Shown here in pieces: positions 5,135-62,962 of a DNA stretch of 64,000 nt. The stretch spans positions 1 to 64,000 of IMG/VR virus record IMGVR_UViG_3300033233_000006. One strand, 5' to 3'. Position 1 is the first letter of the stretch, and each line of letters begins with the position of its first letter. The DNA is from a virus. Position numbers and translations under genes: made by a program. The notes under the pieces were generated by a model, which was given only the letters and a program-made list of their open reading frames with translations, was not told where the DNA came from and ran no database searches.

Positions 5135-5146
5135 TTCTCGAATCTA

Positions 5147-19822: not shown

Positions 19823-20038
19823 TCACTCCAACTCCGCGAGCCACTCGACCGCAGAGAGCGGCTCCATCCGCGAGCTTTCGCGGTAGGTCCACGTTCCGTC
19901 GGGGGAACTCTTGTTCCAGTCGCCGTCGATCAAGACGAAGAGGCCACCGCCGGGGAGCATCCGAACGATCGTGCCGAGGTCGAACTTCTTCCCGCCGAAG
20001 TGCCACACGCGAATGCGATCACCCTCGTGAAGCTCCAT
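19823..20038 (-). CDS. SH3-like tagged protein, leaderless
   Basis: 71 residues, MELHEGDRIRVWHFG...DLGTIVRML...LFVLIDGDW, a small barrel ending PLSAVEWLAELE. ATG 20038 is 6 nt after TAGAAC and has no ribosome-binding site. Confidence 0.75.
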   Translation of the reverse strand: MELHEGDRIRVWHFGGKKFDLGTIVRMLPGGGLFVLIDGDWNKSSPDGTWTYRESSRMEPLSAVEWLAELE

Positions 20039-20044
20039 GCCCGC

Positions 20045-20052
20045 GTTCTACC
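20045..20052 (-). promoter_or_regulatory. GGTAGAAC box that also supplies the upstream stop codon
   Basis: GCAGGGTAGAAC: the TAG ends the upstream gene, and ATG follows TAGAAC after 6 nt. Confidence 0.55.
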
Positions 20053-20266
20053 CTGCGGAGCGGGGTGCGACCCTTCGGGTCTCTATCCCGCGCTTCACCT
20101 CGGCGAGCGCCCGACGACGGGCGAACCCGAGATGCGTCTTCTCGACCCAGTCCCGTCCCTGGCAGGCCCGGCAGAGGAAGCGGGCCTTGAAGCGGAGGTC
20201 GCGTCGGAAGGGCGAACCGATCCGGCGTCGTCCGCATCGGGCGCAACGGCCAACCTGGTAGCTCAT
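20048..20266 (-). CDS. Small zinc-ribbon protein
   Basis: 72 residues, MSYQVGRCARCGRRRIG... CARC (8-11) and CRAC (about 32-35) around a basic loop form a zinc ribbon; no C-terminal tag. ATGA overlap with the upstream gene. Confidence 0.7.
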   Translation of the reverse strand: MSYQVGRCARCGRRRIGSPFRRDLRFKARFLCRACQGRDWVEKTHLGFARRRALAEVKRGIETRRVAPRSAG

Positions 20267-20460
20267 GCCAGCGCTCCGAGCAGCTCGATCGGGTCGTAAT
20301 GGCGAAGCTCGTAGTCGTTGAACCAGGAGTCCCTCGTATCGCCCTCGAAGCGGACGGTGACCCTGCCGCCGTGCTGGTAGTGGACGACGCCGATCTGTTC
20401 GAGCCGTGCCACGCCGAGGAAGATGACGATGACTCGGTCGCCGGGCTGGAAGCCGTTCAT
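20263..20460 (-). CDS. SH3-like tagged protein
   Basis: 65 residues, MNGFQPGDRVIVIFLG...IGVVHYQHGGRVTVRF, ending HYDPIELLGALA. Starts and stops by ATGA overlap. Confidence 0.75.
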   Translation of the reverse strand: MNGFQPGDRVIVIFLGVARLEQIGVVHYQHGGRVTVRFEGDTRDSWFNDYELRHYDPIELLGALA

Positions 20461-20726
20461 GCGAGTTCCGCCAGAAGTTCGACGGGGTCGAGCAGCCGGA
20501 CGGACCTCTCCGGGACGCGGATCTCCCGGTCGTTGGCGTCGAGTCGGACGAGGAGCTTCAAGCCCTCGTCGATGACGATGCCGACGCCCGTGACGGTGCC
20601 CCGCAGATTGGGGAGGCCGCACTCCCCGCTCGCGTCTCCCTTCGCGTCCATGCACGCGACCAGGACGAGCTGCTTTCCCTTCGGATGGAGCGGGCAGAGG
20701 AGCTGGACGCGGTCGCCGATCTTCAT
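20457..20726 (-). CDS. SH3-like tagged protein
   Basis: 89 residues, MKIGDRVQLLCPLHPKG...LRGTVTGVGIVIDEGLKLLVRL, ending LLDPVELLAELA. Clear KOW-like barrel pattern; cysteines are scattered and do not form a zinc site. Confidence 0.75.
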   Translation of the reverse strand: MKIGDRVQLLCPLHPKGKQLVLVACMDAKGDASGECGLPNLRGTVTGVGIVIDEGLKLLVRLDANDREIRVPERSVRLLDPVELLAELA

Positions 20727-20968
20727 GCCAGCTCCGCCAGTAGCTCGATCACCGACACGGCTTCGAGCGTCTGGGGCGGATAGCCGGCGAGGAAGCCTCC
20801 GGCGTTGCTCCTCGGGAAGTAATCCCAGAGGACGTAGACGTAGGGCGTCCCGTCCCGGTCACGGACGAAACTGCCGGGCGACTCGTGGACGGTGCCGAAC
20901 ACGATTGACGCCTCTCGCTCGCCCCCTTTGGGGACGTAGCGAACGCGCGTTCCAGGCTCGAAATTCAT
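20723..20968 (-). CDS. SH3-like tagged protein
   Basis: 81 residues, MNFEPGTRVRYVPKGGE...VFGTVHESPG, ending AVSVIELLAELA. Aromatic-rich middle (YVYVLWDYF). Confidence 0.75.
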   Translation of the reverse strand: MNFEPGTRVRYVPKGGEREASIVFGTVHESPGSFVRDRDGTPYVYVLWDYFPRSNAGGFLAGYPPQTLEAVSVIELLAELA

Positions 20969-21028
20969 GCCAGCTCCGCGAGTCGGGAGATCGGGTCGAG
21001 GGGCGCGATCTCCCGTCTTGAAGCTCAT
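20965..21028 (-). pseudogene. Fossil gene reduced to its start and C-terminal tag
   Basis: 64 nt bounded by ATGA overlaps on both sides. It reads MSFKTGD in frame from ATG 21028; one base later the frame reads APLDPISRLAELA and stops at 20965. The body has been deleted and the frame is broken, leaving only the first residues and the shared tag. Confidence 0.7.
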
Positions 21029-21273
21029 TGGATAAAGTCCTCCCCGAGACCGGGAAAACCCTGAAGCCGCATCGGCTCCCCGCCGCCGAGCTGGGTGAGC
21101 CGGCTCAGCGCGTAGACGGCCCCTTCTCGAACCAAGGCGGTTGACGGCACGAGCATCGAGCCGAGCTGGCGGCTGGCTCCGCAGAAGATGCACGGATCGT
21201 CGAGGCCCATCTCGACGCGGTTGAAGGCGTGCCTCTCCGACTGGCAGACCCAGTAGAACTCCCGCTCGCTCAT
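21025..21273 (-). CDS. Small zinc-knuckle-like protein
   Basis: 82 residues, MSEREFYWVCQSERHAF... with C...CIFCG (about 27-31) as a probable zinc site. No tag; lies between tagged genes with ATGA overlaps. Confidence 0.65.
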   Translation of the reverse strand: MSEREFYWVCQSERHAFNRVEMGLDDPCIFCGASRQLGSMLVPSTALVREGAVYALSRLTQLGGGEPMRLQGFPGLGEDFIQ

Positions 21274-21512
21274 GCCAGCTCCGCCAGCCGATCGACGACG
21301 GAGAGCGGCTCAAGCTGCCGTTCGAGCATGATCGAGGACCGGCGTTCCTCGCCGTCGTCGAAGGCATAGTCGTCCGCGTCCCACTCGACAATGACACCGT
21401 GCGGGCCACGCTCTCCGCGCTTCAAGTCGATGACCGTGCCGATGAATGGCCGCACGCCCGGATCGGGCTCGTAGCGGACACGGTCTCCCTTGGCGAACTT
21501 CATCGGCTTCAT
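21270..21512 (-). CDS. SH3-like tagged protein
   Basis: 80 residues, MKPMKFAKGDRVRYEPD...FIGTVIDLKRG...HGVIVEWDADDYAF, ending PLSVVDRLAELA. Confidence 0.75.
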   Translation of the reverse strand: MKPMKFAKGDRVRYEPDPGVRPFIGTVIDLKRGERGPHGVIVEWDADDYAFDDGEERRSSIMLERQLEPLSVVDRLAELA

Positions 21513-21730
21513 GCCAACTCCGCCAAGCGCTCGACCACATCGAGAGCGCGGATCTCGTAGATGGTGAGGACTGTCTCCGGGCGGAACTCCGTCTTTGTCT
21601 GCTCGACGAGGAGTCGGATGCGCCTGCCATCGGTGGCAAGAATCCTACCGGCACAGCCAGTCCACTGTCGGTTCCACTCCGAGCGAGGCGCAACGATGCG
21701 CACGCGGTCGCCCTGCTTGAATGCGCTCAC
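21509..21730 (-). CDS. SH3-like tagged protein
   Basis: 73 residues from GTG 21730, VSAFKQGDRVRIVAPR...CAGRILATDGRRIRLLVE, ending ALDVVERLAELA. Confidence 0.75.
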   Translation of the reverse strand: MSAFKQGDRVRIVAPRSEWNRQWTGCAGRILATDGRRIRLLVEQTKTEFRPETVLTIYEIRALDVVERLAELA

Positions 21731-21981
21731 GGCGTCTTGATCGACGCGATCTGGTCGACCACCGGGACGAGGCGCTGCAAGTACTCGATGAACATCGGCA
21801 GCTCCTCGACCATGATGTAGAAGCAGCCGCTCCCGCCCGTGTCCTGGTGGAGCGAGACGTAGGGCTCGTGTCGCGGCTCCGGGTCGTTCTCGGCGATGCC
21901 GTCGTCCAGCCGCCGGCAGAGCCGGGCCGTCGCCTTCTCGCGGTCCGGTCCCAATTTCCCGAGGTACATCGGTTCGCTCAC
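21727..21981 (-). CDS. Small tagged protein, not SH3-like
   Basis: 84 residues from GTG 21981. Body is mixed (RLCRRLDDGIAEN, GCFYIMVEELPMFIEYL) and lacks the GDRV barrel start, yet ends VPVVDQIASIKTP. Shows that the tag occurs on another fold. Confidence 0.7.
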   Translation of the reverse strand: MSEPMYLGKLGPDREKATARLCRRLDDGIAENDPEPRHEPYVSLHQDTGGSGCFYIMVEELPMFIEYLQRLVPVVDQIASIKTP

Positions 21982-22124
21982 TGGTCCGCTCCCTTCACGA
22001 GCGCGGCGCGCACCGCTTCCTCGTACCGCTTCGCCGCCGCGTCGAACGCGACCTGGGCTTCGCCGAGCCGTTCCCACGCTCGGTTCTTCTCCTGTCGGGC
22101 TTCCTCGACCGGGTCGGGGCTCAC
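21978..22124 (-). CDS. Very small helical protein
   Basis: 48 residues from GTG 22124: VSPDPVEEARQEKNRAW... one long charged helix ending ALVKGADQ. Position, size and GTGA overlaps on both sides support it. No tag. Confidence 0.6.
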   Translation of the reverse strand: MSPDPVEEARQEKNRAWERLGEAQVAFDAAAKRYEEAVRAALVKGADQ

Positions 22125-22378
22125 CGACCAAGCTCCGCGATCTGCTCGATCACGTCGCCCCGGGAGTTCTCCAGGTGCTTGACGAGGTCGTCGCAGGCCA
22201 TCGCCGCGCTCTCCAGAGCGTTCAGGACGTACTCGATGCAGTGCTGGCGTTCGCGCACGTCCTTGATCTTGCGGATGAGCTTCTTGGCCTTCTTGGAGTA
22301 GTCGTAGACCTCGTCTTGGATCTCCTCGGCGAGCCGAATGTCCTCGTCAGTAACGACACGCCGGACCTTCTTGCCCAC
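22121..22378 (-). CDS. Helical tagged protein
   Basis: 85 residues from GTG 22378: charged helices (IRLAEEIQDEVYDYSKKAKK, ERQHCIEYVLNALESAAMAC) and the end RGDVIEQIAELGR. One of few tagged genes with the TGCAACTC element. Confidence 0.7.
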   Translation of the reverse strand: MGKKVRRVVTDEDIRLAEEIQDEVYDYSKKAKKLIRKIKDVRERQHCIEYVLNALESAAMACDDLVKHLENSRGDVIEQIAELGR

Positions 22379-25828: not shown

Positions 25829-26518
25829 GTGGCGATCGCTGCCGACACCATCATCCACACGCTCAAGGGGAACATGCGCGCGTCTCGCCTGGCTGCGACG
25901 AGCGAACCGTTCTACTGTTTCACCTGGGACGGCAAGCAGATCACCGTGGGCAAAGGCCGGCTCTCGAACCCGCGACGCGTACCGACTCTGAGAATCCTTC
26001 TCGACGACGGAACCTCGGTCCACCTCTCGTCGGAGCAGCCCATCCTGGGACGAGACGGCAACCCGCTCATCCCATCTCAGTCGCCCACCGGCGCCTCGCT
26101 CATGCCACTCTACCTCGGTAAGACGACCCACGGTTACCCGACCTACAAGCAGATGGGCGACCTCTGCAAGACGGCGGTCGCGCCCTCGGACCGAAGACGG
26201 GTAAGGCTGGTAGCTCGAATGGTTTACGAGTGGCGAACGGGCAAGGCGATCGAGACGGGGATGATCGTGCGTTACAAGGACGGAAAGCGAACGAACTGTG
26301 AGCCCGAGAACATGCGACTCGAAGGAAGACCGCACATGAAGCGGAGACAGCGGCTCCTCGGGTTGCAGTCGCGCAAGAAAGTGAAGACCGGGAACAACCA
26401 CAAGACCAACGGCTGCGCGCCGTACGACGAGGAGGATGTGTTCGACATCGACCTCTCCAGCTGCTCGAATGTAGGGGCCGGTGGTATCTTCTTGGTGACC
26501 AATGCCCCCGCTTCGTGA
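25829..26518 (+). CDS. Free-standing Hint/intein-like protein with HNH-type segment
   Basis: 229 residues from GTG 25829, which has GGAGGAG upstream; ATG 25778 lacks one. The start ADTIIHTLKGNMRAS and the segment ILLDDGTSVHLSSEQPIL resemble intein N-terminal blocks but without the nucleophilic cysteine. The end DVFDIDLSSCSNVGAGGIFLV-TN resembles intein C-terminal blocks. Between lies MIVRYKDGKRTNCEPENMRL, like an HNH DNA-recognition part. No extein flanks are visible. Likely a mobile nuclease derived from an intein, just upstream of an intein-bearing portal gene. Confidence 0.6.
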   Translation: MAIAADTIIHTLKGNMRASRLAATSEPFYCFTWDGKQITVGKGRLSNPRRVPTLRILLDDGTSVHLSSEQPILGRDGNPLIPSQSPTGASLMPLYLGKTTHGYPTYKQMGDLCKTAVAPSDRRRVRLVARMVYEWRTGKAIETGMIVRYKDGKRTNCEPENMRLEGRPHMKRRQRLLGLQSRKKVKTGNNHKTNGCAPYDEEDVFDIDLSSCSNVGAGGIFLVTNAPAS

Positions 26519-29500
26519 CCGCGTTGTTGACGCACTTCGCCTCGTCTTCGGCGCCGAGCGCGAGGAGCGGCGGGCGGCAGAATCGCCGTCAGCCGCCGCG
26601 CTCGCTGCTCAGCCGTCGTCGATGTACTCGATGTACGGACGCGACGACCTCGGTGGTCTGCTCTCCGTCTCGCAGATCCTCATGGACCGCTACGCCGACT
26701 ACGAGGCGATGGAGGAGTATCCCGACATCGGGTGCTTGGCCGAGGGCACGCTCGTCTACGTCGTTACTGACACCGGGATCGTGAAGCCCGTCCCGATCGA
26801 AGTGATCGCCGTCGAGGGCGAGGGAATCACGATCCTCGGCTTCGACGTGAACCGAAAGCGCATCGTCAAGATCCAGGCGAACAACCCGCGGCTCACATCG
26901 CCATCGATGGACGTGGTTGCCGTGAAGATGTCGAACGGGCGAACCATCAAGGCGACGCCCGATCACCTCTTCCTCACAGCCGACGGCTGGGCCGCCGCCG
27001 ATCCGTCGAAGGTGAAGGACGGGGTCAAGGCTGCGAAGCTCGTGAAGGGCGCCATCCTCATCGGCATGTTCGCCGGGTTCAACCCGACGGGCCTGACCGC
27101 TCTGGTCGAGCCGCGGTGGGGTAAGCTCGAAGTCCTCGAAGACCCGACGCCCGCCGGCAAGGCGAAGGTCTACGACATCACGACGGTGACGCACAACTTC
27201 ATCGCGGAAGGGACGTGCGTCCACAACTCCGCCTACCGCTACTTCGCCAACGACGCTGTCCAGCCGTCGGTCACCGACGGTCGTGTCATCTGGACCGTCT
27301 CCGACGACGACGCGATCCGCGGCATGACCGACGACCTCATGCACAAGCGGCTGCGCGCCGAGTACGAGCTGTGGTCGCAGGCTTACACGGCTGGGATGTA
27401 CGGCAATAATTTCGAGGAGCTTCTCATAAATGGGAGTGGCGTCGTCGGCCTGAACCATCTCCCCGTGCCGACCATGCGCCGAGTCGAGGGCCTCGACGGC
27501 TCCCTCATCGGCTACGTGCAGGACATCACCGGCCAGTTCACGGCCAACTCGCACGAGCTTCGCGCGATGCTCGCCGGCAACGTCGAGATCCCGAAGTCGC
27601 TCGCGCTGTTCGAGGACTGGCAGGTCGTTCACTTCCGCATGCGGGCTACGCGTCGTCGTTCGCCCTACGGCGTCGGCGTCGGCGAAGGCGCGCGCTGGGT
27701 GTGGAAGCGCCTGATCATGATGGAGGACGCCTCCATCATCTACTGGCTCAATCGCGTTCCTCGCTACGCGTTCTACGTCGACGTGACCGACGTTCCGCCG
27801 GACCGCGTCGAAGGCTTCTTGAAGAAGATGAAGCGGGATCTCAAGAAGAAGAAGATGGTAAATCCCGCGACGGGCAGGCTCGATATGAGGTATAAACCCC
27901 TTTGCCTGTCGGCACTTACGAAGATTCCGCAGCTTGATGGCACCGAGCGAACTGTTAGGGAGATGGCCGATGCTTTCGCTCGCGGTGAGGAGCAGTGGGT
28001 CTACTCGACCGACGTGGAGAAGCAGGGCCGCATCCTCCCCGGCAAGGTCAAGTGGGCTGGCAAGACCCGCGAGAACGCCGAGCTGCTCAAGCTCACGCTC
28101 GACAACGGCGAGTCCATCAAGGTGACGCCGGATCACAAGATGATTCGCCGCAACGGCGACTTCGCGGAAGCGCAGACGCTCAAAGTCGGCGACTCGCTCA
28201 TGCCTTTCCGGCGCGGGATCAGCACGCCAGAGAAAGGCTACGCGATCCACGGCTACGAGTGGGTCTACGACCCGTCGGTGAAGCTTTCGCGCTACACGCA
28301 TCGAATCGTCGCCGGTGAGTTGGGGATCAGGAAGCCAGGTCCGCAGGACACGGTGACGCACCACAAGGACTTCAACAAGCTCAACAACGACCCACGCAAC
28401 CTCGAAGAGATGGACCGGACGGCGCACCGCGAGCTGCACCAACTCGCCGGGCACACCGGCGGAAAAGCCGTGGCCGAGCTGCGGAAGGTGGACTCCGAAC
28501 TCGATCGGAAGCTCCGCGAGGCGTCGACACGAAACATCACAGCCTTCAACAAAGACCCGAAGAAGCGAGCGCGCACTTCCGAGCAGAATCGCGAGCGCGA
28601 CTCGGCGCAGTACATCCGGGCCTACAACGCTTCGGAGAAGCACGAAGCGGACAACGAGACGCGACGCCGGAACATGAAGGCGTTCTGGCGCGACAAGGAG
28701 CGCAGCGCCGCGAGCGCGATCAAGCGCCGTCTCGTCTTCTCCGACGAGTTCGTTCAGGCGATCCGGCGACTGATCGAGGAGCTGCCCGACGCCGGAGCGG
28801 AACGACTGGCGAAGCTCGCCAACGAGCGCGGGCTCGACAAGGTGCTCCAGGCGGCGAACGCGCGCCGGATCAAGCGCATCCACGCGGACATGCTCGTCAA
28901 GATGGTTCGCAAGCTCGGCTACAAGACGCTCGCCGAGTTCAAGGGCGTGGTCGTCTGCGACAACCACAAAGTCGTCGCGATCGAGTGGCTCGTGGAGCGC
29001 GAGGACACCTACACGCTCACCGTCGAGCCAGCTCACACCTTCGGAATCAGCGCCGGCATCTTCGTGAAGAACTCGCAGGACGAGGATTTCATCGTCGGCG
29101 TGCGCGAAGGTCGCGACCTCGCGCGCATCGAGGTCGTCTCGGCGCCCGAGTGGACGAACAACGAGAGCCTGGACTACTTCAAGCGGATGCTCCACGGGAC
29201 GCTCAACGTCCCGCGTGCCTGGCTCGGCCAGGAGGAACCGCTCCCGAGCAAGAACCCACTTAGCAGCGAAGACGTGCGCGCGGCGAGGGTTACGCTGAAT
29301 CTCCAGCAGGAACTCAAGCTCGGCTACGAGCGAATCTGCCGTGTTCATCTCGCGGCGCGGGGGATGAAGAACCCCGACGACGCCGACTTCTCGATCCAGA
29401 TGACGGTGCCCTCGGGCATCTACGAGCTGGCCGCCTACGAGGTACTCAACGCCCGCGCCGACTACGCGACGCGCATCGCGCCGTTCACGTCCGTCCGCTG

Positions 29501-30011
29501 GGTGCTGGAGAACATCCTCAAGATGGGCGAAGCGGAGATCGCGGCGATCGAGAAGCAGAGGAAGAAGGAACAACAAGAGGGCATGGGCGCCCCCGGTGGG
29601 ATGGGCGGCGGGATGGGCATGCCTCCCGCGCCGATGCCGCCGCCCCCGCCTTCGGGGGGTGGAAGTGAACAGCCTCCCGCGGAATCTCCGGGCACGGCTG
29701 GTACTCCCGAGCCTCCGCCTCCGGGCGCTCCGGCGCGCGAGTGGAAGGTCTACGACCAGGGGCGCCGTATCGAGGAGATGCGCTATCGCGAGTCGTGCCG
29801 CAACCACCAATTCCTCGTGGACAAGCTCGGTCAAGTCCTGTCTAATCAGGATGATGCGTTCTCTCATCGTGAGCGCGAGCGCCGCGCTTTCTTCGAGGAC
29901 TTCAAGAAGGCGACGATCAACTCGCGCCGTGGATTCACCACGGCTACCCCATCGGGGCGGGGTCGCGGAACGGCCAACGGATCGCTCCCGGCACTGGGCA
30001 ACGGCCACTAA
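26502..30011 (+). CDS. Portal protein with two inteins (T4-like)
   Basis: 1169 residues as translated; about 614 after removal of two inteins (78-242 and 468-857). Mature parts show a T4 gp20-like core: YWLNRVPRYAFYVDVTDVPP, LKKKKMVNPATGRLDMRYKPL joined to SQDEDFIVGV, then WLGQEEPL. The protein forms the dodecameric DNA entry ring at one head vertex and binds terminase and neck proteins. A P/G-rich section (about 1030-1085) precedes a charged helical tail. The N-terminus LRDRVVDALRLVF resembles the LFDRVV starts of the 2H and Nudix proteins. Overlaps the Hint gene by 17 nt. Confidence 0.9.
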   Translation: MPPLRDRVVDALRLVFGAEREERRAAESPSAAALAAQPSSMYSMYGRDDLGGLLSVSQILMDRYADYEAMEEYPDIGCLAEGTLVYVVTDTGIVKPVPIEVIAVEGEGITILGFDVNRKRIVKIQANNPRLTSPSMDVVAVKMSNGRTIKATPDHLFLTADGWAAADPSKVKDGVKAAKLVKGAILIGMFAGFNPTGLTALVEPRWGKLEVLEDPTPAGKAKVYDITTVTHNFIAEGTCVHNSAYRYFANDAVQPSVTDGRVIWTVSDDDAIRGMTDDLMHKRLRAEYELWSQAYTAGMYGNNFEELLINGSGVVGLNHLPVPTMRRVEGLDGSLIGYVQDITGQFTANSHELRAMLAGNVEIPKSLALFEDWQVVHFRMRATRRRSPYGVGVGEGARWVWKRLIMMEDASIIYWLNRVPRYAFYVDVTDVPPDRVEGFLKKMKRDLKKKKMVNPATGRLDMRYKPLCLSALTKIPQLDGTERTVREMADAFARGEEQWVYSTDVEKQGRILPGKVKWAGKTRENAELLKLTLDNGESIKVTPDHKMIRRNGDFAEAQTLKVGDSLMPFRRGISTPEKGYAIHGYEWVYDPSVKLSRYTHRIVAGELGIRKPGPQDTVTHHKDFNKLNNDPRNLEEMDRTAHRELHQLAGHTGGKAVAELRKVDSELDRKLREASTRNITAFNKDPKKRARTSEQNRERDSAQYIRAYNASEKHEADNETRRRNMKAFWRDKERSAASAIKRRLVFSDEFVQAIRRLIEELPDAGAERLAKLANERGLDKVLQAANARRIKRIHADMLVKMVRKLGYKTLAEFKGVVVCDNHKVVAIEWLVEREDTYTLTVEPAHTFGISAGIFVKNSQDEDFIVGVREGRDLARIEVVSAPEWTNNESLDYFKRMLHGTLNVPRAWLGQEEPLPSKNPLSSEDVRAARVTLNLQQELKLGYERICRVHLAARGMKNPDDADFSIQMTVPSGIYELAAYEVLNARADYATRIAPFTSVRWVLENILKMGEAEIAAIEKQRKKEQQEGMGAPGGMGGGMGMPPAPMPPPPPSGGGSEQPPAESPGTAGTPEPPPPGAPAREWKVYDQGRRIEEMRYRESCRNHQFLVDKLGQVLSNQDDAFSHRERERRAFFEDFKKATINSRRGFTTATPSGRGRGTANGSLPALGNGH
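26733..27227 (+). mobile_element. Mini-intein in the portal gene
   Basis: Codons 78-242 (165 residues). Begins C-L-A-E-G-T, has the block B motif ATPDHLF, and ends GTCVHN before Ser+1. There is no room for an endonuclease, so it can splice but probably cannot home by itself. Inserted after EEYPDIG. Confidence 0.9.
27903..29072 (+). mobile_element. Large intein with HNH endonuclease in the portal gene
   Basis: Codons 468-857 (390 residues). Begins C-L-S-A-L-T, block B VTPDHKM, an HNH nuclease at about 619-646 (THHKDFNKLNNDPRNLEEM), and ends FVKN before Ser+1. The penultimate residue is Lys instead of His. Inserted between RYKPL and SQDED in the most conserved part of the portal. Confidence 0.9.
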
Positions 30012-32302: not shown

Positions 32303-34093
32303 ATGAGTCGCCGAGTCCTGAACGACCTGCAAGGCACCTACAAGATGTCCATCCTCGAAGGGCAGCAGGGCGGGAAGCTCGTCGTCGAGGGCAAGATCGG
32401 TCACTGCGATCAGGCCACGGCGAATGGCCGGGTGTACCCGCGCTCCGTCATGGAGCGCGAGATCGGCAGGCTCAAGCCGAAGATCGAGTCGGTCAGCGTC
32501 TACAGCGCTGTCGACCACCCGGGCGACGGCAAGACGCGCATCAAGGACTCGGGCGCGCTCGTTCGCGATCTCTGGATCGAGCCCTCGGGCGAGATCAGAG
32601 GCCGCTTCGAGGTCGTCGAGGAGGCTCCGGCTGGACAGGCGCTCGCCGCCTTCCTGCGCCGGGGCGCCTCGGTCGGCATGTCCTCGCGCGGCATGGGTTC
32701 GACGACGACCGGGCCCGGCGGCCACGATGTCGTCGGCGAGGACTTCCGCCTCAACACCTGGGACTTCGTCTCCGATCCGGCGTGCCAGGACGCCTACCCC
32801 TCGCTCGTCGCCGAGGGGGAGGAGGAGAAGATCACCGAGGATCACATCCGTGCCCGCTTCCCCAAGATCGTCACGGCGATCGAGGAACGCGCCTACGCGA
32901 CCGCTCAGTGCGTCGTCGAGGAGGACGCTCGCGAGCGCATCGGAACCGAGGTCACCACCCAGACCGAGAAGGACGCCGAGGAGGCGATCAAGCTCGCGGC
33001 CCCCAAGATCCGCGAGGAGATGAAGGCCGAGCTGCGCGAGGAGATGAAGAAGGAGCTGAGCGAGGACTTCGCCGTCAAGCTCGTCCGCGCGCTCGCCGAG
33101 ATGAAGGACACGGTGACGGAGGAAGTCCGCTCCGAGCTGTCGTCCGACCCCGAGGTCGCCGGAGCCAAGCTCGCGATCAAGAAGATCGCGGAGATGGTCG
33201 CTCCCTTCAAGGCGCCCGTCGATGTCGAGAAGGTGCTCGCCGAGAAGGACACCAAGGTCACGCGGCTGGAGACGCAGCTCAAGACGGAGCAGGAGAAGGT
33301 CGCGAACCTCGACCACAAGGGCAAGATCCTCGCCTACGCCGTCTACGTCGAGCAGCGCATCGCCAACCGCGAAGATGCCGCCGACCTGCGCAAGCTCATC
33401 GGCAAGCTCGAAGACGTGAAGTCGGGCAAGGAGCTGGAGGCGAAGGTCGACGCCGTCGTCTCCGAGGCCGACAAGCACATCGCCAAGGCCAAGGAGGACG
33501 CCGAGGAGCAGCTCGCTTCGGTCCAGGCCGAGGCCGAGGAGCGGGCCGCCGAGGCGGAGCGCCGCGCGCTCGACGCCGCGACGCGCGAGCGAAAGCTCCG
33601 CGAAGAGGTCGACAAGCGCATCGGGCAGGTCGAGTCGCAGGTCAAGTCCGTCACCGAGGACTTCAAGAAGAAGCTTGACGAGAAGGACAAGGCGCTCGAT
33701 GCCGCCCAGAAGCGGATCACGACGCTGAGCGAGTCCGGCAACAAGGCCAACCTCGCCTCGTACGCGAAGGAGCGGACAGCCGGACACCCCAAGGCGCAGC
33801 AGATCACCGAGGAGGTTCAGGCCGGCAAGCTCACCTCCAAGGTCGAGATCGACAAGCGCGCCACGAAGCTCGAAACGGCGGCCCAGGAGCCCGGCGGCGT
33901 CCACGAGCGCGTGCGCCGCGCGATGAGCGCCGGACGCGAAGCCATGACCGAGGACGAGCGCGTCCAGGTCGAGGCGACCGAGATCGCCTACGGAGACGAT
34001 GGAGAGGCGGCAGACGATCTCAGGGAGATCGGCACGTCCCTCACGGAGCAGACCCATCTCGCCCGAGGCCCCAGTCGGGCCCCGGGCATGTAA
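32303..34093 (+). CDS. Prohead protease fused to long coiled-coil scaffold domain
   Basis: 596 residues. Residues 1-168 match T4 gp21-type prohead proteases: GKIGHCDQATANGRVYPRSV, a His in VDHPGD (72), DLWIEPSGEIRGRFEVV, and the nucleophile region ASVGMSSRGMGS (about 122-133), then WDFVSDPACQDAYPSL. Residues 190-560 are charged coiled coil. Fusing protease and core in one chain would place the enzyme inside the prohead for maturation cleavage. It may cut itself from the coil; no site was assigned. Confidence 0.85.
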   Translation: MSRRVLNDLQGTYKMSILEGQQGGKLVVEGKIGHCDQATANGRVYPRSVMEREIGRLKPKIESVSVYSAVDHPGDGKTRIKDSGALVRDLWIEPSGEIRGRFEVVEEAPAGQALAAFLRRGASVGMSSRGMGSTTTGPGGHDVVGEDFRLNTWDFVSDPACQDAYPSLVAEGEEEKITEDHIRARFPKIVTAIEERAYATAQCVVEEDARERIGTEVTTQTEKDAEEAIKLAAPKIREEMKAELREEMKKELSEDFAVKLVRALAEMKDTVTEEVRSELSSDPEVAGAKLAIKKIAEMVAPFKAPVDVEKVLAEKDTKVTRLETQLKTEQEKVANLDHKGKILAYAVYVEQRIANREDAADLRKLIGKLEDVKSGKELEAKVDAVVSEADKHIAKAKEDAEEQLASVQAEAEERAAEAERRALDAATRERKLREEVDKRIGQVESQVKSVTEDFKKKLDEKDKALDAAQKRITTLSESGNKANLASYAKERTAGHPKAQQITEEVQAGKLTSKVEIDKRATKLETAAQEPGGVHERVRRAMSAGREAMTEDERVQVEATEIAYGDDGEAADDLREIGTSLTEQTHLARGPSRAPGM

Positions 34094-34107: not shown

Positions 34108-35559
34108 ATGTTGACTCAGCGCAGAATGATCAACGAGAGCGATCAGAGGGCCGCGGTGCGCGAGGCCGTCCCGATCGCCGACGAGTCGGCTGTAGGCCGA
34201 TACGTCGCGAAGTGGAACAAGCTCCTCATCGGTCTCGACGAGGAACTCGGTCCGCACGCGACGCCCGGCCAGAAGCAGTACGTGAGGGGCATCGCCGCCC
34301 TCATGATCGAGCAGGAGGTTCGCCACCTCAAGCGGCTGAACGAGGAGACGCGCGCTCTCTCGGTCGGTCCGTTCATGAAGTACGTGCTTCCGGTCATCCG
34401 GCGCACGGCGATCCGCCTCGTGGCGACGCAGATCAGCTCGGTCCAGCCCATGACCGGCCCGATCGGCGGCGTCGCGTTCTACCGTCCGCGCTACGCGAGC
34501 GACAAGGGCTCGATCGTCGCCGGCACGGAGATGAACAAGGTCTTCAACAAGTGGTACAGCTCCAACTTCGTCGACGGCGAGCCCTTCGCCACCGGCGACG
34601 CGGGCGGTACGGTGACGTTCGGACGCAACCTCCAGTGGCCTCGCCCGACGGCGGGGACGCTCGTGGTGAAGGTCAACGGCACGGTCGTCGGCACCGACAA
34701 CGGCGGCGGCAGCTTCAACATCGTCGCGGGGTCGATCCTGGCCGGTGGCTCGGGCTCGATCAACTACCAGTCGGGCCTGCTCAGCCTGACCTTCGGCACC
34801 GCTCCGGCGAACGGTGACAAGGTCACGGTCGAGTACCGCTACGACAACGAGCTGAACAGCCGCATCCCCGAGGTCCAGCTCGACATCGAGATCAAGGAGA
34901 TCCGGGCCGAGAGCCGCAAGCTCAAGAGCCTGGCGTCGGTCGAGGCGGCGGACGACCTCCGCGCTCTCTGGGGCCGCGACGTGGATGCGGACCTGGTCGC
35001 GCAGATGTCGGACGAGATGACCGCCGAGATCGACCGTGAGATCGCCGGCACGGCGCTCAACGCGGTCGAGCCGACGGCGGTCGTCAAGTGGGACCGTGCG
35101 ACCGCCTCCGGCGTGTCGGACCCCGAGCACCTCAAGTCGCTCACGATCCGGCTCTCCAGGGCGAGCCACATCGTCCACCGTCGCACCCAGCGCGCTCCGG
35201 CGAACTGGATCATCACGTCGTCCGAAGTGGCGTCGCTCCTCGACAACATCGACGGCTTCGTGGCCGTCGACGAGGGACACGTCTACCAGGGCGGCATCAT
35301 CAAGCAGGGCGTTCTCCAGCGGAAGTGGGTGGTCTTCGTCGACCCGCTCTTCCCGCAGAACCAGATGCTCTTGGGCTATCAGGGTCCGAGCATTCTGGAC
35401 ACGGGCCTCATCTACAGCCCGTACATCCCGATGGAGATCACTCCGAACTTCATCGACCCCAACGATCTGAGCCTGCGTCGCGCCGTGCGCACCAGGCACA
35501 AGATCACCCTCACTCGCCCCGAATTCTTCGCGCGAGTCGAGATCGACAACCTGACCTAA
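34108..35559 (+). CDS. Major capsid protein (T4-like)
   Basis: 483 residues. VLPVIRRTAIRLVATQISSV then QPMTGPIGGVAFYRPRY matches the region around the conserved QPMTGP of T4 gp23-type capsid proteins (HK97 fold). A beta-rich insertion covers about 165-250 (GTLVVKVNGTVVG...). PNDLSLRRAVRTRHKITL near the end is also typical. AAGGAGG precedes ATG. It assembles the head shell; the protease gene is immediately upstream. Confidence 0.9.
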   Translation: MLTQRRMINESDQRAAVREAVPIADESAVGRYVAKWNKLLIGLDEELGPHATPGQKQYVRGIAALMIEQEVRHLKRLNEETRALSVGPFMKYVLPVIRRTAIRLVATQISSVQPMTGPIGGVAFYRPRYASDKGSIVAGTEMNKVFNKWYSSNFVDGEPFATGDAGGTVTFGRNLQWPRPTAGTLVVKVNGTVVGTDNGGGSFNIVAGSILAGGSGSINYQSGLLSLTFGTAPANGDKVTVEYRYDNELNSRIPEVQLDIEIKEIRAESRKLKSLASVEAADDLRALWGRDVDADLVAQMSDEMTAEIDREIAGTALNAVEPTAVVKWDRATASGVSDPEHLKSLTIRLSRASHIVHRRTQRAPANWIITSSEVASLLDNIDGFVAVDEGHVYQGGIIKQGVLQRKWVVFVDPLFPQNQMLLGYQGPSILDTGLIYSPYIPMEITPNFIDPNDLSLRRAVRTRHKITLTRPEFFARVEIDNLT

Positions 35560-54413: not shown

Positions 54414-54891
54414 GTCGGAATGGCCCGAATGGAAGCGTGGCGATCGCGCCATCATCGGCGTCATGCGCACCAGACCGCCCGACGGCGTGAGGCGTAGTCC
54501 GAGCGAGACGGTCTACATCCGCGGGACGGTGACGAGCGTCGTGATCGACCTCGGGTGGGGCGGAGCGTGGCGCATCTTCATCCACACCGATGACGGGGAG
54601 ATCGAGAGCTGCTCCCCAGAGAACCTACGCCGGCCCGACGTGATCGAGCTGATCGGAGAGATCCCATGCACTCCAAGACACCGCCCTTCGAGATCGGCGA
54701 CCGCATCCGCCACGGAGAGCGAACCTACGCCCCGGCTAAGAAAGGGTGGCAGCGGGTCTACCCAGGCAGCGTCACCGCGTGCTACTGGAATGACGAAGAC
54801 TCGGACACCGGCTGGTGGGTTACGGCGAAGCTCGACGAAGGTCGAGAGGTCCACGGCACGGCGGGCGAGTTCGAGAAGGTCGTCGACGTGA
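54397..54891 (+). CDS. SH3-like tagged protein with lost stop codon
   Basis: 164 residues as read. Residues 1-90 form the expected unit (WKRGDRAIIGVMRT...IRGTVTSVVIDL) ending RPDVIELIGEI at about 54666. Where neighbours have an ATGA overlap this gene has ATGC, so the stop is missing. Translation runs on for about 73 residues in a frame that overlaps the next gene and looks non-coding. Confidence 0.65.
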   Translation: MRLPPESEWPEWKRGDRAIIGVMRTRPPDGVRRSPSETVYIRGTVTSVVIDLGWGGAWRIFIHTDDGEIESCSPENLRRPDVIELIGEIPCTPRHRPSRSATASATESEPTPRLRKGGSGSTQAASPRATGMTKTRTPAGGLRRSSTKVERSTARRASSRRSST

Positions 54892-54962
54892 TCGAGGCGT
54901 TGGCGGATCTCTACAAGGAGAAGCCGCTGCGTTTCCTGCCCCGAGGTAGAACGGAGACATGA
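54666..54962 (+). CDS. SH3-like tagged protein
   Basis: 98 residues, MHSKTPPFEIGDRIRHGERT...YPGSVTACYWND; the tag VVDVIEALADLYKEK is followed by a basic tail encoded by the next gene's GGTAGAAC box. Confidence 0.7.
   Translation: MHSKTPPFEIGDRIRHGERTYAPAKKGWQRVYPGSVTACYWNDEDSDTGWWVTAKLDEGREVHGTAGEFEKVVDVIEALADLYKEKPLRFLPRGRTET
54945..54952 (+). promoter_or_regulatory. GGTAGAAC box, leaderless geometry
   Basis: TAGAAC ends 6 nt before ATG 54959. Confidence 0.55.
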
Positions 54963-55303
54963 GCGGCGACCTGCCCAAGACGCTCCAAGACGGCCAGCAT
55001 CGCCCCGACCCCCAGGAGCGCGAGCTGGCCGAGAAGACGATCGAGCTGTCCGCGCTGGTGGACGACATCAAGCAGATGCGGGAACGGCTCATCCTCAAGT
55101 CGTCGGCGATCTTCAAGCGAATCCGATCGGGCGAGAAGCTCAAGGCGTCGGAGCGGCAGAAGGTCGAAAAGCTCGCCAAGCACTTCGGCAAGACGCCGTT
55201 CGGGCTCACTGAGGCAGTTCGAGCCGCCAAGGAGGCCGATCTCAGTCCGATGCTCCACGCCTGGATCGAGGCGACGGAAGCACGGGTAACTCGGGGGCTG
55301 TGA
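54959..55303 (+). CDS. Helical coiled-coil-like protein
   Basis: 114 residues, leaderless ATG. Long helices ELAEKTIELSALVDDIKQMRE and KASERQKVEKLAKHFGKT. No tag. Function unknown. Confidence 0.7.
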   Translation: MSGDLPKTLQDGQHRPDPQERELAEKTIELSALVDDIKQMRERLILKSSAIFKRIRSGEKLKASERQKVEKLAKHFGKTPFGLTEAVRAAKEADLSPMLHAWIEATEARVTRGL

Positions 55304-55306
55304 CCA

Positions 55307-55552
55307 ATGCGCGACGCCGATGGCCGCTACTACAAGGTGCTCGATCGCGTCGTGGTCGAGCCGGCGTGGCACGACGGCTCCAGCATCGGAACGACCCACC
55401 TGGTCGGGCGGCCTACGCGCGGCACGCTCATGGAGACGGAGGGGCCCTCTCGGTTCCGCATCCGACTCGACAACGGCCCGATCATCTACGCGATGCCGGA
55501 GTACGTCCGGCACCTCGACGCGATCGAGGCGGTTTCCGAGGCTGACCGATGA
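55307..55552 (+). CDS. SH3-like tagged protein
   Basis: 81 residues, MRDADGRYYKVLDRVVVEPAW...PTRGTLMETEG...RFRIRLDNG, ending HLDAIEAVSEADR. Confidence 0.7.
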   Translation: MRDADGRYYKVLDRVVVEPAWHDGSSIGTTHLVGRPTRGTLMETEGPSRFRIRLDNGPIIYAMPEYVRHLDAIEAVSEADR

Positions 55553-55806
55553 GCGAGAAGCCACTGCCGTGCCCCTTCGCCGCTTATGCGCTGGTCAAGG
55601 TGCCCGAATGGGCACGTCCTCTGTACGTCGGGGTTGTCATGGGCACTGAGTCTCGACTCGCGCCCACACCGGCGGGGGCTCGCCCAGACGGCGCCTGGAC
55701 CTGGTTCATCACGATCGACTTCGGGAAGGGAAGAGGCGTTGGCGTTTTTGAGATGCGACACGTCAAACACGTCGACCCGATCTCGGCGCTGGCGCTCATC
55801 CGATGA
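55549..55806 (+). CDS. SH3-like tagged protein
   Basis: 85 residues, MSEKPLPCPFAAYALVKVPE...YVGVVMGTES...WFITIDFGKG, ending HVDPISALALIR. Confidence 0.7.
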   Translation: MSEKPLPCPFAAYALVKVPEWARPLYVGVVMGTESRLAPTPAGARPDGAWTWFITIDFGKGRGVGVFEMRHVKHVDPISALALIR

Positions 55807-56051
55807 GCGCCGAGGCGAAGGTCGGCGACTGCGTGCGCGTGGTGCGTCCGCACTCTGAGGGCGTGGACAAGTACATCGGCACGGTCGAGGACATCCGCAA
55901 GTACGGCCAATTCCTCCGTTACTACATCCGCCTTCGGAGCGGGAAGCTCCTCAATCTCGACTCGCGGGTCATCAAGCAGCTCGACATCGTGACGGGCTTG
56001 GCGATGCTCGACCCGGAGTTCCAGCCCGACTCGGAGAACGAGAAGCCGTGA
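55803..56051 (+). CDS. SH3-like tagged protein
   Basis: 82 residues, MSAEAKVGDCVRVVRPHSEG...YIGTVEDIRKYG...YYIRLRSGK; tag QLDIVTGLAMLDPE followed by a short acidic tail. Confidence 0.7.
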   Translation: MSAEAKVGDCVRVVRPHSEGVDKYIGTVEDIRKYGQFLRYYIRLRSGKLLNLDSRVIKQLDIVTGLAMLDPEFQPDSENEKP

Positions 56052-56281
56052 GCGGCTTCGAGCGCGGGCAGCGCGTGATCGTTCAGCCAGACAAGAACCT
56101 CGAAGTGGTGCGCGCTGAGGGAGTGGAGATCCGGCTCCCGGCGTTCGGTACCATCGCCCAAGAAGACCCGTGGGGTTATGCGATCGTCCTCGTAGACGGG
56201 CTCACCGAACCGAAGTCGTTCCCGGCCTGGCGCTGCACGCCGCGGAACGTCATCGACGAGATCGGGATGCTCGATAAGTAG
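56048..56281 (+). CDS. SH3-like tagged protein
   Basis: 77 residues from GTG 56048: FERGQRVIVQPDKN...FGTIAQEDPWGYAIVLVDG, ending PRNVIDEIGMLDK. Confidence 0.7.
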   Translation: MSGFERGQRVIVQPDKNLEVVRAEGVEIRLPAFGTIAQEDPWGYAIVLVDGLTEPKSFPAWRCTPRNVIDEIGMLDK

Positions 56282-56306
56282 CGCCACGGCCCGAACTTCG
56301 ACTCGA

Positions 56307-56343
56307 TGCAACTCCTCGCCGGTCGCGTGTCTCAGGGTAGAAC
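56307..56343 (+). promoter_or_regulatory. Both promoter-like elements side by side
   Basis: TGCAACTC, 12 nt, GTGT (56307-56330), then GGTAGAAC (56336-56343), upstream of GTG 56361. The only place where both classes occur together on the plus strand. Confidence 0.6.
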
Positions 56344-56360
56344 GAGGGCGAGGTGACGGC

Positions 56361-56780
56361 GTGGGCATATTCGAGAAGGCGACCAAGTCGAAGCTGACCA
56401 AGAACGGGCGCAAGCTGTCACTCACCTTCACGCAGCTCGTCGGACTGCGCGCGGCGATCCCACACGCGTTCGAGCTGGGCGGTCTCCAGCCGGAGATCGC
56501 TGCGCAGCTTGTTGCTCTTCGGGCGTGGCTCCCCAAGCCACCGATCCCGCACCCGACCACGGACGAAGGCACGATCACGGCGTGGCGAAGCGAGTGGCAA
56601 GGGACGCACCACCTCACGGTGCCGGGCGAGCACCTGACCGCGCTCGCGTTCGCGCTCAAGTTCGCCTTCTGGCTCGCCACGCAGGGGCTCATCGTCGGCC
56701 AGCCGATCGTCTACCAGCGTCGGATCGAGGCGATCGAGAAGCTCGGCGCCGTCGATCTTCTTGCGATCGCGGAGGGCTAG
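56361..56780 (+). CDS. Helical tagged protein, group of five related genes
   Basis: 139 residues from GTG 56361 (GGGCGAGG upstream). Helical body (LSLTFTQLVGLRAAIPHAFELGG, LTALAFALKFAFWLATQG) without a barrel; ends LGAVDLLAIAEG. The next four genes share the layout: LTVPG/LQLHW-type strand, helix in the second half and the tag. Confidence 0.7.
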   Translation: MGIFEKATKSKLTKNGRKLSLTFTQLVGLRAAIPHAFELGGLQPEIAAQLVALRAWLPKPPIPHPTTDEGTITAWRSEWQGTHHLTVPGEHLTALAFALKFAFWLATQGLIVGQPIVYQRRIEAIEKLGAVDLLAIAEG

Positions 56781-56782
56781 TC

Positions 56783-57157
56783 ATGTCTGTCGACTTCGTC
56801 TTCACGATCCCGTTGAGGTACCACGCCGAGGCGGTCGCGGTCTCCAAAGCCGCCGCCTTCGCGGAGGCGTCAGCCGCGGCGGACCGCGTCCTCAGCGCGA
56901 TCGAGCGCGGAACGAAGATCACCGCACTCTACCCGTCCCTTACGCCGCACGATGCGATCGAAGTCCGCGTGGGGCTCGACGACATCTCGGCGCTCAAGGC
57001 GATCCTCGATGCGAACCACTCGCACAGCTTTCCCGTCGTTTCTCCCGACACCGACGAGGTCCAGCTCGACTGGGAGGACTGGAGCTGGCACACGATGCAC
57101 TTGCTCTACTCGTTCGAGCGCGAGTCGGTCGTCGATCATCTCGGGAAGATCCAGTGA
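56783..57157 (+). CDS. Helical tagged protein
   Basis: 124 residues, MSVDFVFTIPLRYHAE...; VQLDWEDWSWHTMHLLYSF then RESVVDHLGKIQ. Same architecture as the gene before. Confidence 0.7.
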   Translation: MSVDFVFTIPLRYHAEAVAVSKAAAFAEASAAADRVLSAIERGTKITALYPSLTPHDAIEVRVGLDDISALKAILDANHSHSFPVVSPDTDEVQLDWEDWSWHTMHLLYSFERESVVDHLGKIQ

Positions 57158-57537
57158 GCCTTCCCGCGTTTCAGCTCACGTCCCCCGCGCCGCGCGATCT
57201 CTACGAGGTGATGACCTGCGCCGAGCAGATCCTCTGGGACACCAGGAACGAGAAGATGCGACCCGACAGCAACCGCGAGTCGCTCCAGCGGATCGTTGCC
57301 GTGATCAAGACGGACCCCGACTACGGTCGTGGGTGCATCCCCAGCCGATCGCCTGTGCTCGAAATCGCGCACGAAGATGTCCGCACTCTGCGCTTCGTCT
57401 TCCTCGTCCTCCACACCGAGCTGGCGATCAAGGAGGAAGTGACCATCCGCTACGAGGAGTGGCTCGAAGTGACGATGGAGACCCTCGCCAAGATCGGCGA
57501 CACCTCGATCGTCGAGCACATCGGACGAATCCTGTGA
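57154..57537 (+). CDS. Helical tagged protein
   Basis: 127 residues from GTG 57154: SLPAFQLTSPAPRDLYEVMTCAE..., YEEWLEVTMETLAKIG, ending DTSIVEHIGRIL. The start SLPAF is repeated in the next gene. Confidence 0.7.
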   Translation: MSLPAFQLTSPAPRDLYEVMTCAEQILWDTRNEKMRPDSNRESLQRIVAVIKTDPDYGRGCIPSRSPVLEIAHEDVRTLRFVFLVLHTELAIKEEVTIRYEEWLEVTMETLAKIGDTSIVEHIGRIL

Positions 57538-57896
57538 GCCTACCCGCGTTCAAGTTCTACGTTCACGCCGGCATCTTCACAGGCTTCGTGGAGGGCCTTC
57601 GCGTTCACAGCCTGAAGACCAACGGCATGCCCGAACCGCCGTTCGTCTGCGATCGGCCCGCCATCAAGGCGATCGACGAGATGGCGGCGCTCAACGCCCA
57701 CCGGCTCCAGCTTCACTGGACGATTCCCTACGACCTGCTCGACGCTCTCATGGACGTGCTCGCGTGGTGGATGGCGAACACGAAAGCCGGCGCGTTGACC
57801 GACGCGGACGAGTTCGCGTTCGACCTCCTCGAATCGGCCCGGGAGTGGCGGCGTCGGTCGATCGTCGATCACATCAGCGAGATCCGGCATGAGTAA
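57534..57896 (+). CDS. Helical tagged protein
   Basis: 120 residues from GTG 57534: SLPAFKFYVHAG..., LQLHWTIPYDLLDALMDVLAWW, ending RRSIVDHISEIRHE. Tandem paralogue of the previous gene. Confidence 0.7.
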   Translation: MSLPAFKFYVHAGIFTGFVEGLRVHSLKTNGMPEPPFVCDRPAIKAIDEMAALNAHRLQLHWTIPYDLLDALMDVLAWWMANTKAGALTDADEFAFDLLESAREWRRRSIVDHISEIRHE

Positions 57897-58290
57897 AGAC
57901 CGACTCGGACCCCCGGTTCGTGTCGAGATCGCAGCCGGCGAGTGGCAGGTCTTCATGCTCGGCCTCTCGTGGGCGATCCGTCGCAGCTACGTCGATCACG
58001 TTACGCTCGGCTACTCGGCGCTTGTCGAGGAGGCGCTTCTCGCGGCGAGCAAGAAGCGGCGGACGCGCGACAAGACGCCCGCCGTGCTCGAATTGCCGAG
58101 GTCGACGCTCGACTGGACTGGCGAGGCGCTCATCCGGGCCAGTCGCGACGCGAAGGCCAAGGTCAACTACTTCAATGGTCGCACGACTAAGGAACGGCGA
58201 GCGTTCATGCGGAACGCCGGGAAGACGATCGAGCGTCTCAAGGCGGAGAACAAGAAGACGGTCATCGACCTCATCGGAGACCTCGGGTAG
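57889..58290 (+). CDS. Helical tagged protein
   Basis: 133 residues, MSKDRLGPPVRVEIAAGEW...; ends KKTVIDLIGDLG with a TAG that is part of a GGGTAGAAC box. Overlaps the previous gene by 8 nt. Confidence 0.7.
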   Translation: MSKDRLGPPVRVEIAAGEWQVFMLGLSWAIRRSYVDHVTLGYSALVEEALLAASKKRRTRDKTPAVLELPRSTLDWTGEALIRASRDAKAKVNYFNGRTTKERRAFMRNAGKTIERLKAENKKTVIDLIGDLG

Positions 58291-58293: not shown

Positions 58294-58308
58294 GGAGAGG
58301 GCTTATCC

Positions 58309-58677: not shown

Positions 58678-58692
58678 GAAGGGGTGAGGGAG

Positions 58693-59034
58693 ATGAGGAA
58701 CATCGGCACTGACAACATCGTCGAGTTCGTGCGCGGGATGCTCAATCGCCCGATGATGTACTGTCAGTCGACCGAGTCGCTGGAGATGGCGCTCCTCACC
58801 GCCATGACCTGCTGGGCCTACGCCAGCGGAGCTGACTCGGACGAACGCGTCAGGAATCTGTGGCGTCGCGAGATCCACCGACTCCATGGCAACACCGGCT
58901 CGCGCGCAGTAACGCTCTCCGATCTTCCCACTTGTGGCAAGGCGATGCACATGGACGCTGTGACCGTGCCGATGCGCCGCATCTGGCTCGCGCTCACGGA
59001 GCCGATCACTGCTATCGGAAACGTCGAGCTATGA
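58693..59034 (+). CDS. Helical protein of unknown function
   Basis: 113 residues, MRNIGTDNIVEFVRGMLNR...; GAGGGAG abuts ATG 58693 (GTG 58684 is an alternative). C-terminal helix MRRIWLALTEPITAIG. No tag. Confidence 0.6.
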   Translation: MRNIGTDNIVEFVRGMLNRPMMYCQSTESLEMALLTAMTCWAYASGADSDERVRNLWRREIHRLHGNTGSRAVTLSDLPTCGKAMHMDAVTVPMRRIWLALTEPITAIGNVEL

Positions 59035-59213
59035 AGATCCTGCGGTGTATGGTCTGCCACCACGAGCACCCGCTCGAAGACGCGCCCGAGCGCTGCCTGT
59101 GCGGTGCTAAGCTCTACGGGAAGTGGGCTCGGGCTACCGAGCGCGTCATGGTGGCCGCGCGGGCTCGTGGCGCTGAAATCAGGTCTCAGATCAACGTGCG
59201 AGAGCAGACATGA
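59031..59213 (+). CDS. Very small zinc protein
   Basis: 60 residues, MKILRCMVCHHEHPLED... CMVC (6-9) and CLCG (22-25) form a zinc knuckle; basic helical tail. Confidence 0.7.
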   Translation: MKILRCMVCHHEHPLEDAPERCLCGAKLYGKWARATERVMVAARARGAEIRSQINVREQT

Positions 59214-59599
59214 GCGTCGACGCCGACTCCATCAAGCAGAAGTGGGGTGTGCTCGCCGGTTCGCTCGACTCGAACGCGGCGGCGCTCATGGAGAGATTCG
59301 TTCGTGGGGAGACGGAGCTGCTCGAACGGCTTGAGGCAAAGGGCTCCAAGATCCCGGCGTGGGTGATGGCGGCGCACAGGCCGATCAACCCACCGCACAC
59401 ACCGCTCATCTCGGTTCAACCCATGTCGGCGCCGGTCGGCGGCATCGCGTTCTACAGGCCGCGATACGGGTCGGAGCCCGAGTGCATCATCGACGCGCTC
59501 GCCACGCTCGACTCGAAGAAGCCGGTCGAGAACCCCTACAAGCGCAAGCGCAGAGGGGGCGAGATCGCGCCGGGTCGCGAGGGTATGAAGACGGTCTGA
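59210..59599 (+). CDS. Small protein carrying a major-capsid-protein segment
   Basis: 129 residues. SVQPMSAPVGGIAFYRPRY-GS (about 68-88) nearly repeats SVQPMTGPIGGVAFYRPRY-AS of the capsid protein encoded at 34108. The N-terminal helix (IKQKWGVLAGSL) loosely resembles the capsid N-terminal region, and the C-terminus is basic (KRKRRGG). It lacks the rest of the capsid fold. It could interact with capsomers or mimic them; it may also be a duplicated fragment put to new use. Confidence 0.7.
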   Translation: MSVDADSIKQKWGVLAGSLDSNAAALMERFVRGETELLERLEAKGSKIPAWVMAAHRPINPPHTPLISVQPMSAPVGGIAFYRPRYGSEPECIIDALATLDSKKPVENPYKRKRRGGEIAPGREGMKTV

Positions 59600-59880
59600 T
59601 GGCGAAGTCTGGTCCGAGCCAGGAAGATGATGCTCGCCTCGCCGCCGAGCGGGAGAAGGTCGCCTGCCGCTACTGCGGCGGCAAGCCTATTCACTTCCCA
59701 CCGCCGGGACGCCCTCAATCGGATGCTGTCTGCGAGGACTGCTCGCATCGCGCGCCGTGGATGTCGGTCGTCGAATCCGTCGTCCAGTTGGCGCACCCGG
59801 AACCGAAGGCTGTCGACATCCGAGTCGACGGTGTCAAGTACCGGCCCACGACCGATTTCTCCAAGGAGAACTTCACTTGA
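59599..59880 (+). CDS. Small zinc-ribbon protein with internal tag-like segment
   Basis: 93 residues, MAKSGPSQEDDARLAAE...; CRYCGG (about 23-28) and CEDC (about 48-51), then MSVVESVVQLAHPE at about 58-71 and a beta tail. Confidence 0.65.
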   Translation: MAKSGPSQEDDARLAAEREKVACRYCGGKPIHFPPPGRPQSDAVCEDCSHRAPWMSVVESVVQLAHPEPKAVDIRVDGVKYRPTTDFSKENFT

Positions 59881-60230
59881 CCCCGAACAGGCCGGCGTTC
59901 GCCGCGTGCATGGTCGCCTACACGGCGGTCGATGTGCTGGCGAACCTTCGGCTCAAGGTCTGGCTCGCCGATGGAAGCTGGATAGCGTTCGCGCAGGGCA
60001 TGTTCTTCTACGTCGGATGCGGCGCGCTGTGGGCGCTGAGCCTCAAGTTCGAGAGCTTCGCCAAAGCAGCGCTCGTCTACACGCTGATTGCCCTCGCGGC
60101 GGGCGTCATCCTCGGCGTATTCTTCTTCAAGGAGAAGCTGTCGACGTTGAACTGGGTGGGCGTGGGCGTCGCGCTCATCGCCATCATCCTCGTCGAGTGG
60201 CCCAGCAACCAGGGAGTGAACGAACAGTGA
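59877..60230 (+). CDS. Four-helix membrane protein, SMR/EamA-like
   Basis: 117 residues from TTG 59877 (TTGA overlap). Four hydrophobic helices: about 7-25, 35-56, 62-85 and 92-110, with GVILGVFFFKEKLSTLNWVG, the pattern of the last helices in small multidrug-resistance/EamA transporters. Such proteins are inner-membrane exporters; in a phage it may act in lysis timing, exclusion or transport. Function not proven. Confidence 0.65.
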   Translation: MTPNRPAFAACMVAYTAVDVLANLRLKVWLADGSWIAFAQGMFFYVGCGALWALSLKFESFAKAALVYTLIALAAGVILGVFFFKEKLSTLNWVGVGVALIAIILVEWPSNQGVNEQ

Positions 60231-62958: not shown

Positions 62959-62962
62959 ATTG

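Follow-up and report, generated by a model that had tools for sequence, protein, structure and literature searches.

A small gene of a T4-like phage carries a segment of the major capsid protein and belongs to a set of predicted, mostly tagged small proteins made from head-protein pieces

The window analyzed here, a stretch of 64,000 nucleotides (positions 1 to 64,000 of the virus record IMGVR_UViG_3300033233_000006), encodes a T4-type portal with two intein-domain matches (26502..30011, +; PF07230, E 3.1e-31; PF14890), an S77 prohead protease (32303..34093, +; PF03420, E 3.3e-13) and, adjoining the protease gene, a gp23-type major capsid protein of 483 aa (34108..35559, +; PF07068, E 2.7e-54). 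With a T4-type portal and an S77 prohead protease encoded ahead of its gp23-type gene, this virus is a T4-like phage, and because portal, protease, and capsid are all encoded in the record itself, it is not that of a simple satellite. HNH-like ORFs are found near the capsid gene (35710-36771) as well as at 61535-62023 and 62960-63517. The ORF of interest (59210..59599, +) starts with ATG and encodes a protein of 129 aa. It lies within a run of small genes and overlaps both of its neighbors, as in a coupled operon: an upstream ORF of 60 aa with four cysteines in two CxxC-like pairs (59031..59213, +) is joined to it by an ATGA overlap, and a downstream ORF (59599..59880, +) by a TGATG overlap.

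The middle of this small protein resembles the capsid protein of the same phage. Residues 68-86 (SVQPMSAPVGGIAFYRPRY; 59411..59467, +) are identical to residues 111-129 of the gp23-type capsid (34438..34494, +) at 15 of 19 positions, and the four differences between capsid and small protein are T/S, G/A, I/V, and V/I, so that both proteins share the pattern SVQPM..P.GG.AFYRPRY. An earlier note on this DNA had described an ORF at exactly these coordinates with a capsid segment that differs at four positions, and our comparison agrees. Within the 131,251-base virus record, the capsid gene is the only non-self match of the small protein (E 2.2e-9), which, together with reversed-sequence controls, rules out chance similarity. 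The segment also matches the capsid profile (E 2.7e-10), and this match is restricted to residues 63-90 (about 28 residues); scored as a whole, the small protein reaches 14.2 bits against PF07068 over 32 of 376 positions, below the curated cut-off of 24.4 bits. A fresh DNA duplication was likewise considered and ruled out: the two genes agree at 48 of the 60 shared nt (80%), four of the 15 codons for the same residue differ synonymously, and pS between the small gene and its own capsid gene is 0.33-0.41. The segment is thus not a recent copy. We also considered whether the N-terminal helix of the small protein corresponds to the gp23 N-terminus, to which it gave at most a suggestive match (E 0.003 at a probability of 10% in hhalign with the motif left out, against E 0.19 for the reversed control).

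When aligned by profile with T4 structures that have been solved, the segment falls at about residues 113-131 of T4 gp23, within a block matching T4 residues 94-136. The Gol region, which we take to span about residues 93-122 of T4 gp23, would overlap the segment by about ten residues if those limits hold. Gol, which is 29 residues long and located within the first quarter of gp23, binds EF-Tu, enables its cleavage by Lit, and is conserved more strongly than any other part of gp23 (PMC3014915). Residue Met98 of the T4 protein belongs to the N-arm and contributes to portal binding (PMC7136217), so the segment comes directly after this arm; by this alignment, it is the stretch of gp23 that follows the N-arm and leads into the E-loop. 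The Gol region also occurs in another small protein, of 77 aa, from one of the related viruses (G022; gp23 82-109). In addition, a distant T4-like phage (IMGVR_UViG_3300014913_000053) encodes a 92-aa protein (L164:1856-2134, -) that has the N-arm/Gol region of gp23 and lacks the peptide tag described below; its Gol-region sequence reads RRFKKFTIPIVKRN...RIVSVQPMTKP.

The small protein had no convincing match among known phages, no relative in bacterial genomes, and no PHROGs family that included it. Among the matches listed for the motif peptide in known phages, the annotated ones are capsids; the one record with two matches that we examined has a second head-protein gene next to the first, as expected for a gp24-type paralog. 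A DNA pattern for the P-L/I-I-S-V-Q-P-M junction matched solely an unrelated frame of 19 aa. When the small protein was initially compared with viral contigs, only full-length capsids were returned, and its relatives were located through records of viruses with related capsids, followed by an alignment-based rescan. These relatives are on metagenomic contigs of unknown completeness, and gene calls beyond the window are our own.

This approach recovered three further hybrids, in G003 (L073:13995-14372), G022 (L082:5086-5493), and G025 (L089:4989-5339), with overall identities of 32-37% to the protein in the window. The earlier note had suggested a search of relatives for the same hybrid, and this check is positive, with three more viruses. 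Across all four, the capsid segment varies less than any other part of the family, with SVQPM, P, GG, FY, P, and Y invariant within it, contrary to the lack of conservation that the note had named as refuting its reading. The segment is also constrained at the protein level: the G003-G022 pair has a pN of 0.08 and a pS of 0.37, and for the G000-G003 pair the values are 0.13 and 0.45, with few sites in either comparison. For the whole small gene dN/dS is 0.48, while the head genes have lower values (0.11-0.34). The small-gene frames are open, and gene order is retained between G003 and G022. In the three relatives the capsid-profile match spans gp23 residues ~67 to ~125, reaching about 30 residues further upstream, where P-W-V-K....IRR stands against P-F-M-K....IRR, so that in these viruses the upstream part is also derived from gp23. 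The claim that the rest of the protein is unrelated to the capsid therefore stands for the window protein taken alone, but not for its relatives, and the C-terminal part bears a shared tag. A partial duplication, which had been proposed as one origin, is in turn supported by the homology of the segment to gp23 and by this longer gp23-derived stretch. The role suggested in the note, that the protein may cap, regulate, or poison assembly, is a possible one. Judged by its conservation and constraint, the ORF is a maintained small gene, the middle part of which comes from gp23.

What the earlier note omits is a wider pattern, namely that many small proteins combine different head-protein pieces with a common tag. 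We searched short ORFs in the genomes of the related viruses with the full-capsid profile, and again with a second gp23-like protein of G016 added. At E<0.05, 15 short proteins matched, not counting a fragment of the G016 gp23-like protein created by the gene caller, compared with 0 among the same proteins reversed; cases with E 0.05 to 1 are treated as leads only. The pieces jointly span most of gp23 (for example, residues 67-125, 80-107, 139-235, 241-267, 256-319, 285-306, 333-359, 416-458, 420-439, and 437-472). Nine candidate pieces, three of them weak, lie in scrambled order inside about 9.5 kb of G025, and the genome of the window phage has one detectable piece only. Clusters of gp23 and prohead protease pieces, scrambled and mostly tagged, are found at L158:7542-17027 (G025), L073:12193-14788 (G003), and L082:4742-6936 (G022). 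Other head proteins are sources as well. Pieces of prohead proteases homologous to that of the window occur in small proteins of relatives (L158:15144-15584, a gene that also appears as L089:5841-6281; PF03420, E 3.8e-4; BLAST, E 4e-10), and in a 65-aa protein of G006 (L159:7721-7918, -) the tag comes after a C-terminal piece of the portal (E 2e-8; 40 residues at 40% identity). This last protein sits among large genes. When 84 large-protein clusters were compared with a reversed control, gp23 stood out, and the remaining matches were mostly orthologs, intein or HNH genes, and genes split by the caller. The second gp23-like protein of G016 (L067; G016:174 kb, minus strand) has 327 aa, lacks the E-loop/insertion region, and is encoded at a distance from the head genes. 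By these matches, the ORF in the window is one of a set of mostly tagged small proteins made from pieces of gp23, prohead protease, and portal, and the set probably descends from duplicated head genes.

The tag, (S/D)A(V/I)(D/E)xL(A/G)xL, is present on most piece-bearing proteins and on many short proteins without a head-derived part, reaching up to one third of short, otherwise unrelated proteins. In its strict form, it occurs in 52 of the 168 short proteins in the examined part of G022 (0.06 expected after shuffling) and in 33 of 147 in G003 (0.02 expected after shuffling), and a looser form is found in 22 of 126 in the genome of the window phage (0.6 expected). It is rare in long proteins and mostly lies within 25-60 residues of the C-terminus. 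The small protein itself has a loose copy, IIDALATL (residues 93-100; 59486..59509, +), which aligns with SAVDRLAAL in its three relatives. Two runs of small genes in the window have it at the ends of their products: one at 54666..58290 (+), in which most end in the loose form (VIEALADL, IVTGLAML, VIDEIGML, VVDHLGKI, IVEHIGRI, IVDHISEI, and VIDLIGDL), and another at 19823..22378 (-; SAVEWLAEL, VIELLAEL, VVDRLAEL, VVERLAEL, VVDQIASI, and VIEQIAEL). Tagged small proteins as a group occupy 54666-60735 (+), 95-8107 (-), and 19823-22378 (-) of the window and are present on L079, L080, L082, L084, L085, L086, and L158. Two proteins have the tag embedded in capsid-derived sequence (L158:15961-16176 and L085:11204-11554). 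The tag core PSAVDRLAA is also seen in the N-terminal part of an HNH-like gene (L087:16323-17429) that follows the G022 capsid gene. Codon identity between tag copies equals random expectation (0.399 against 0.404, 0.449 against 0.422, and 0.340 against 0.400), which rules out a DNA repeat or recombination site; the codons are scrambled to saturation, and it is the peptide signal that is conserved by selection. The tag may be an ssrA-like end degron, although many copies lie at least 30 residues from the end. It had no match in 50,697 phage records, and we found no report in the openly licensed literature of small phage proteins that share a motif at the C-terminus.

While the architecture of this set is well supported, its function we infer. 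We tentatively favor the possibility that these are tagged proteins of an accessory or internal kind that become part of the head as it assembles, in which the gp23 segment would serve for docking. The head-derived segment would act during prohead assembly as a short docking module for a partner of its parent protein, and the tag would bring all of them to a single place, in the simplest case the prohead core. The proteins would thereby resemble the internal proteins of T4, which have a capsid-targeting sequence. The pieces come from portal-vertex, core-protease, and shell proteins, and T4 loads its internal proteins into the prohead core by way of a short sequence that they have in common; as both features point to the head, we prefer this reading. 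In T4, a targeting sequence of about 10 residues on internal proteins brings foreign proteins into the core, and IPII and IPIII are likewise unrelated small proteins with one common short peptide (PMC9958956). However, the T4 targeting sequence is N-terminal, while the tag described here is mostly C-terminal, has another sequence, and is on far more proteins. Other observations sit uneasily with accessory head proteins: tagged proteins by the dozen would make a heavy load for the head, nearly all of gp23 contributes pieces (20-60 residues), which are not apparently chosen for one interface, the genome of the window phage has a single detectable piece, the small gene has a dN/dS above that of the head genes, and AlphaFold2 models the small protein poorly (pLDDT 52). 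Binding to a partner, a location within the head, and any effect on assembly would follow from this reading.

Several other explanations account for part of the same data. The pieces could be relics of a duplicated portal-protease-gp23 block, kept in small genes with no function tied to the capsid sequence. This would explain why they span most of gp23 in scrambled order and include its neighbor, the protease, as well as the portal, why G016 has a 327-aa second gp23-like protein, and why the small gene is under weaker constraint than the head genes. Decay of a duplicate is a plausible origin of the pieces, but the open frames, the gene order kept between G003 and G022, the constraint on a capsid segment that is the most conserved part of its family, and the presence of a selected tag make it somewhat unlikely that they are relics and nothing else. 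Another possibility is that the pieces serve as decoys for capsid-sensing immunity, occupying sensors without activating them. They come chiefly from capsid and protease, and known defense triggers include exactly these proteins: gp23 for Lit (PMC3014915), other capsid proteins for CapRel and Thoeris, and a prohead protease for CBASS (PMC9712102, PMC11312562). Most known sensors read folded capsid protein, however, which short pieces may not mimic; the portal is a source too, and a duplicated block of neighboring genes would give the same sources. We regard decoys as unlikely. The position of the segment raises the further possibility that the small protein binds host EF-Tu and thereby affects translation or capsid folding, or competes with Gol. 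The apparent overlap with a conserved region that binds EF-Tu in T4 and the recurrence of this region in the 77-aa protein of G022 and the 92-aa protein of the distant T4-like contig are consistent with such a ligand, but the window protein retains only the C-terminal half of Gol (VQPM..P.G), with the RR...LIA part unrecognizable, and many pieces of the set come from other regions of gp23, which makes this quite unlikely. Lastly, the set may be a library of adaptors, in which every small protein would bring a different recognition part, in several cases taken from the capsid, prohead protease, or portal of the phage itself, while the common peptide would dock on one hub such as the prohead core, a protease, or another effector. 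The pieces would then be re-used against whatever recognizes the parent proteins, including host sensors and competing heads. We hold this to be doubtful, and it would be categorically new if true.

The set has parallels in several known systems. The gp23 N-arm/Gol of T4, known from Lit-EF-Tu exclusion, involves what is probably the same conserved stretch and acts as a separate peptide (PMC3014915), whereas here the stretch belongs to a conserved small gene of its own that also encodes a tag and retains only half of Gol. Paralogs of gp23, such as gp24-type vertex proteins and the 327-aa protein of G016, are also second gp23-related genes in the same phage, but they retain most of the capsid sequence, in contrast to about 27-60 residues in the small proteins described here. 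If the small protein acts on capsid assembly, the capsid regulators of satellites (P4 Sid, SaPI CpmA/CpmB, and PLE TcaP) would be a functional parallel; to our knowledge none of these is a fragment of the capsid protein of the helper, and the small protein here is encoded by the phage.

If the tag targets the head, dozens of proteins would be packaged in uncultured T4-like phages, and the tag would be a new cargo-loading signal for heads; if it instead docks on another hub, it would represent an unseen way to organize small phage proteins. If the set is functional, this phage lineage has converted parts of its head proteins into modules that are tagged and expressed separately, and the set would make it possible to ask directly which regions of a capsid protein function as peptides in their own right, of which T4 Gol has so far been the main example.
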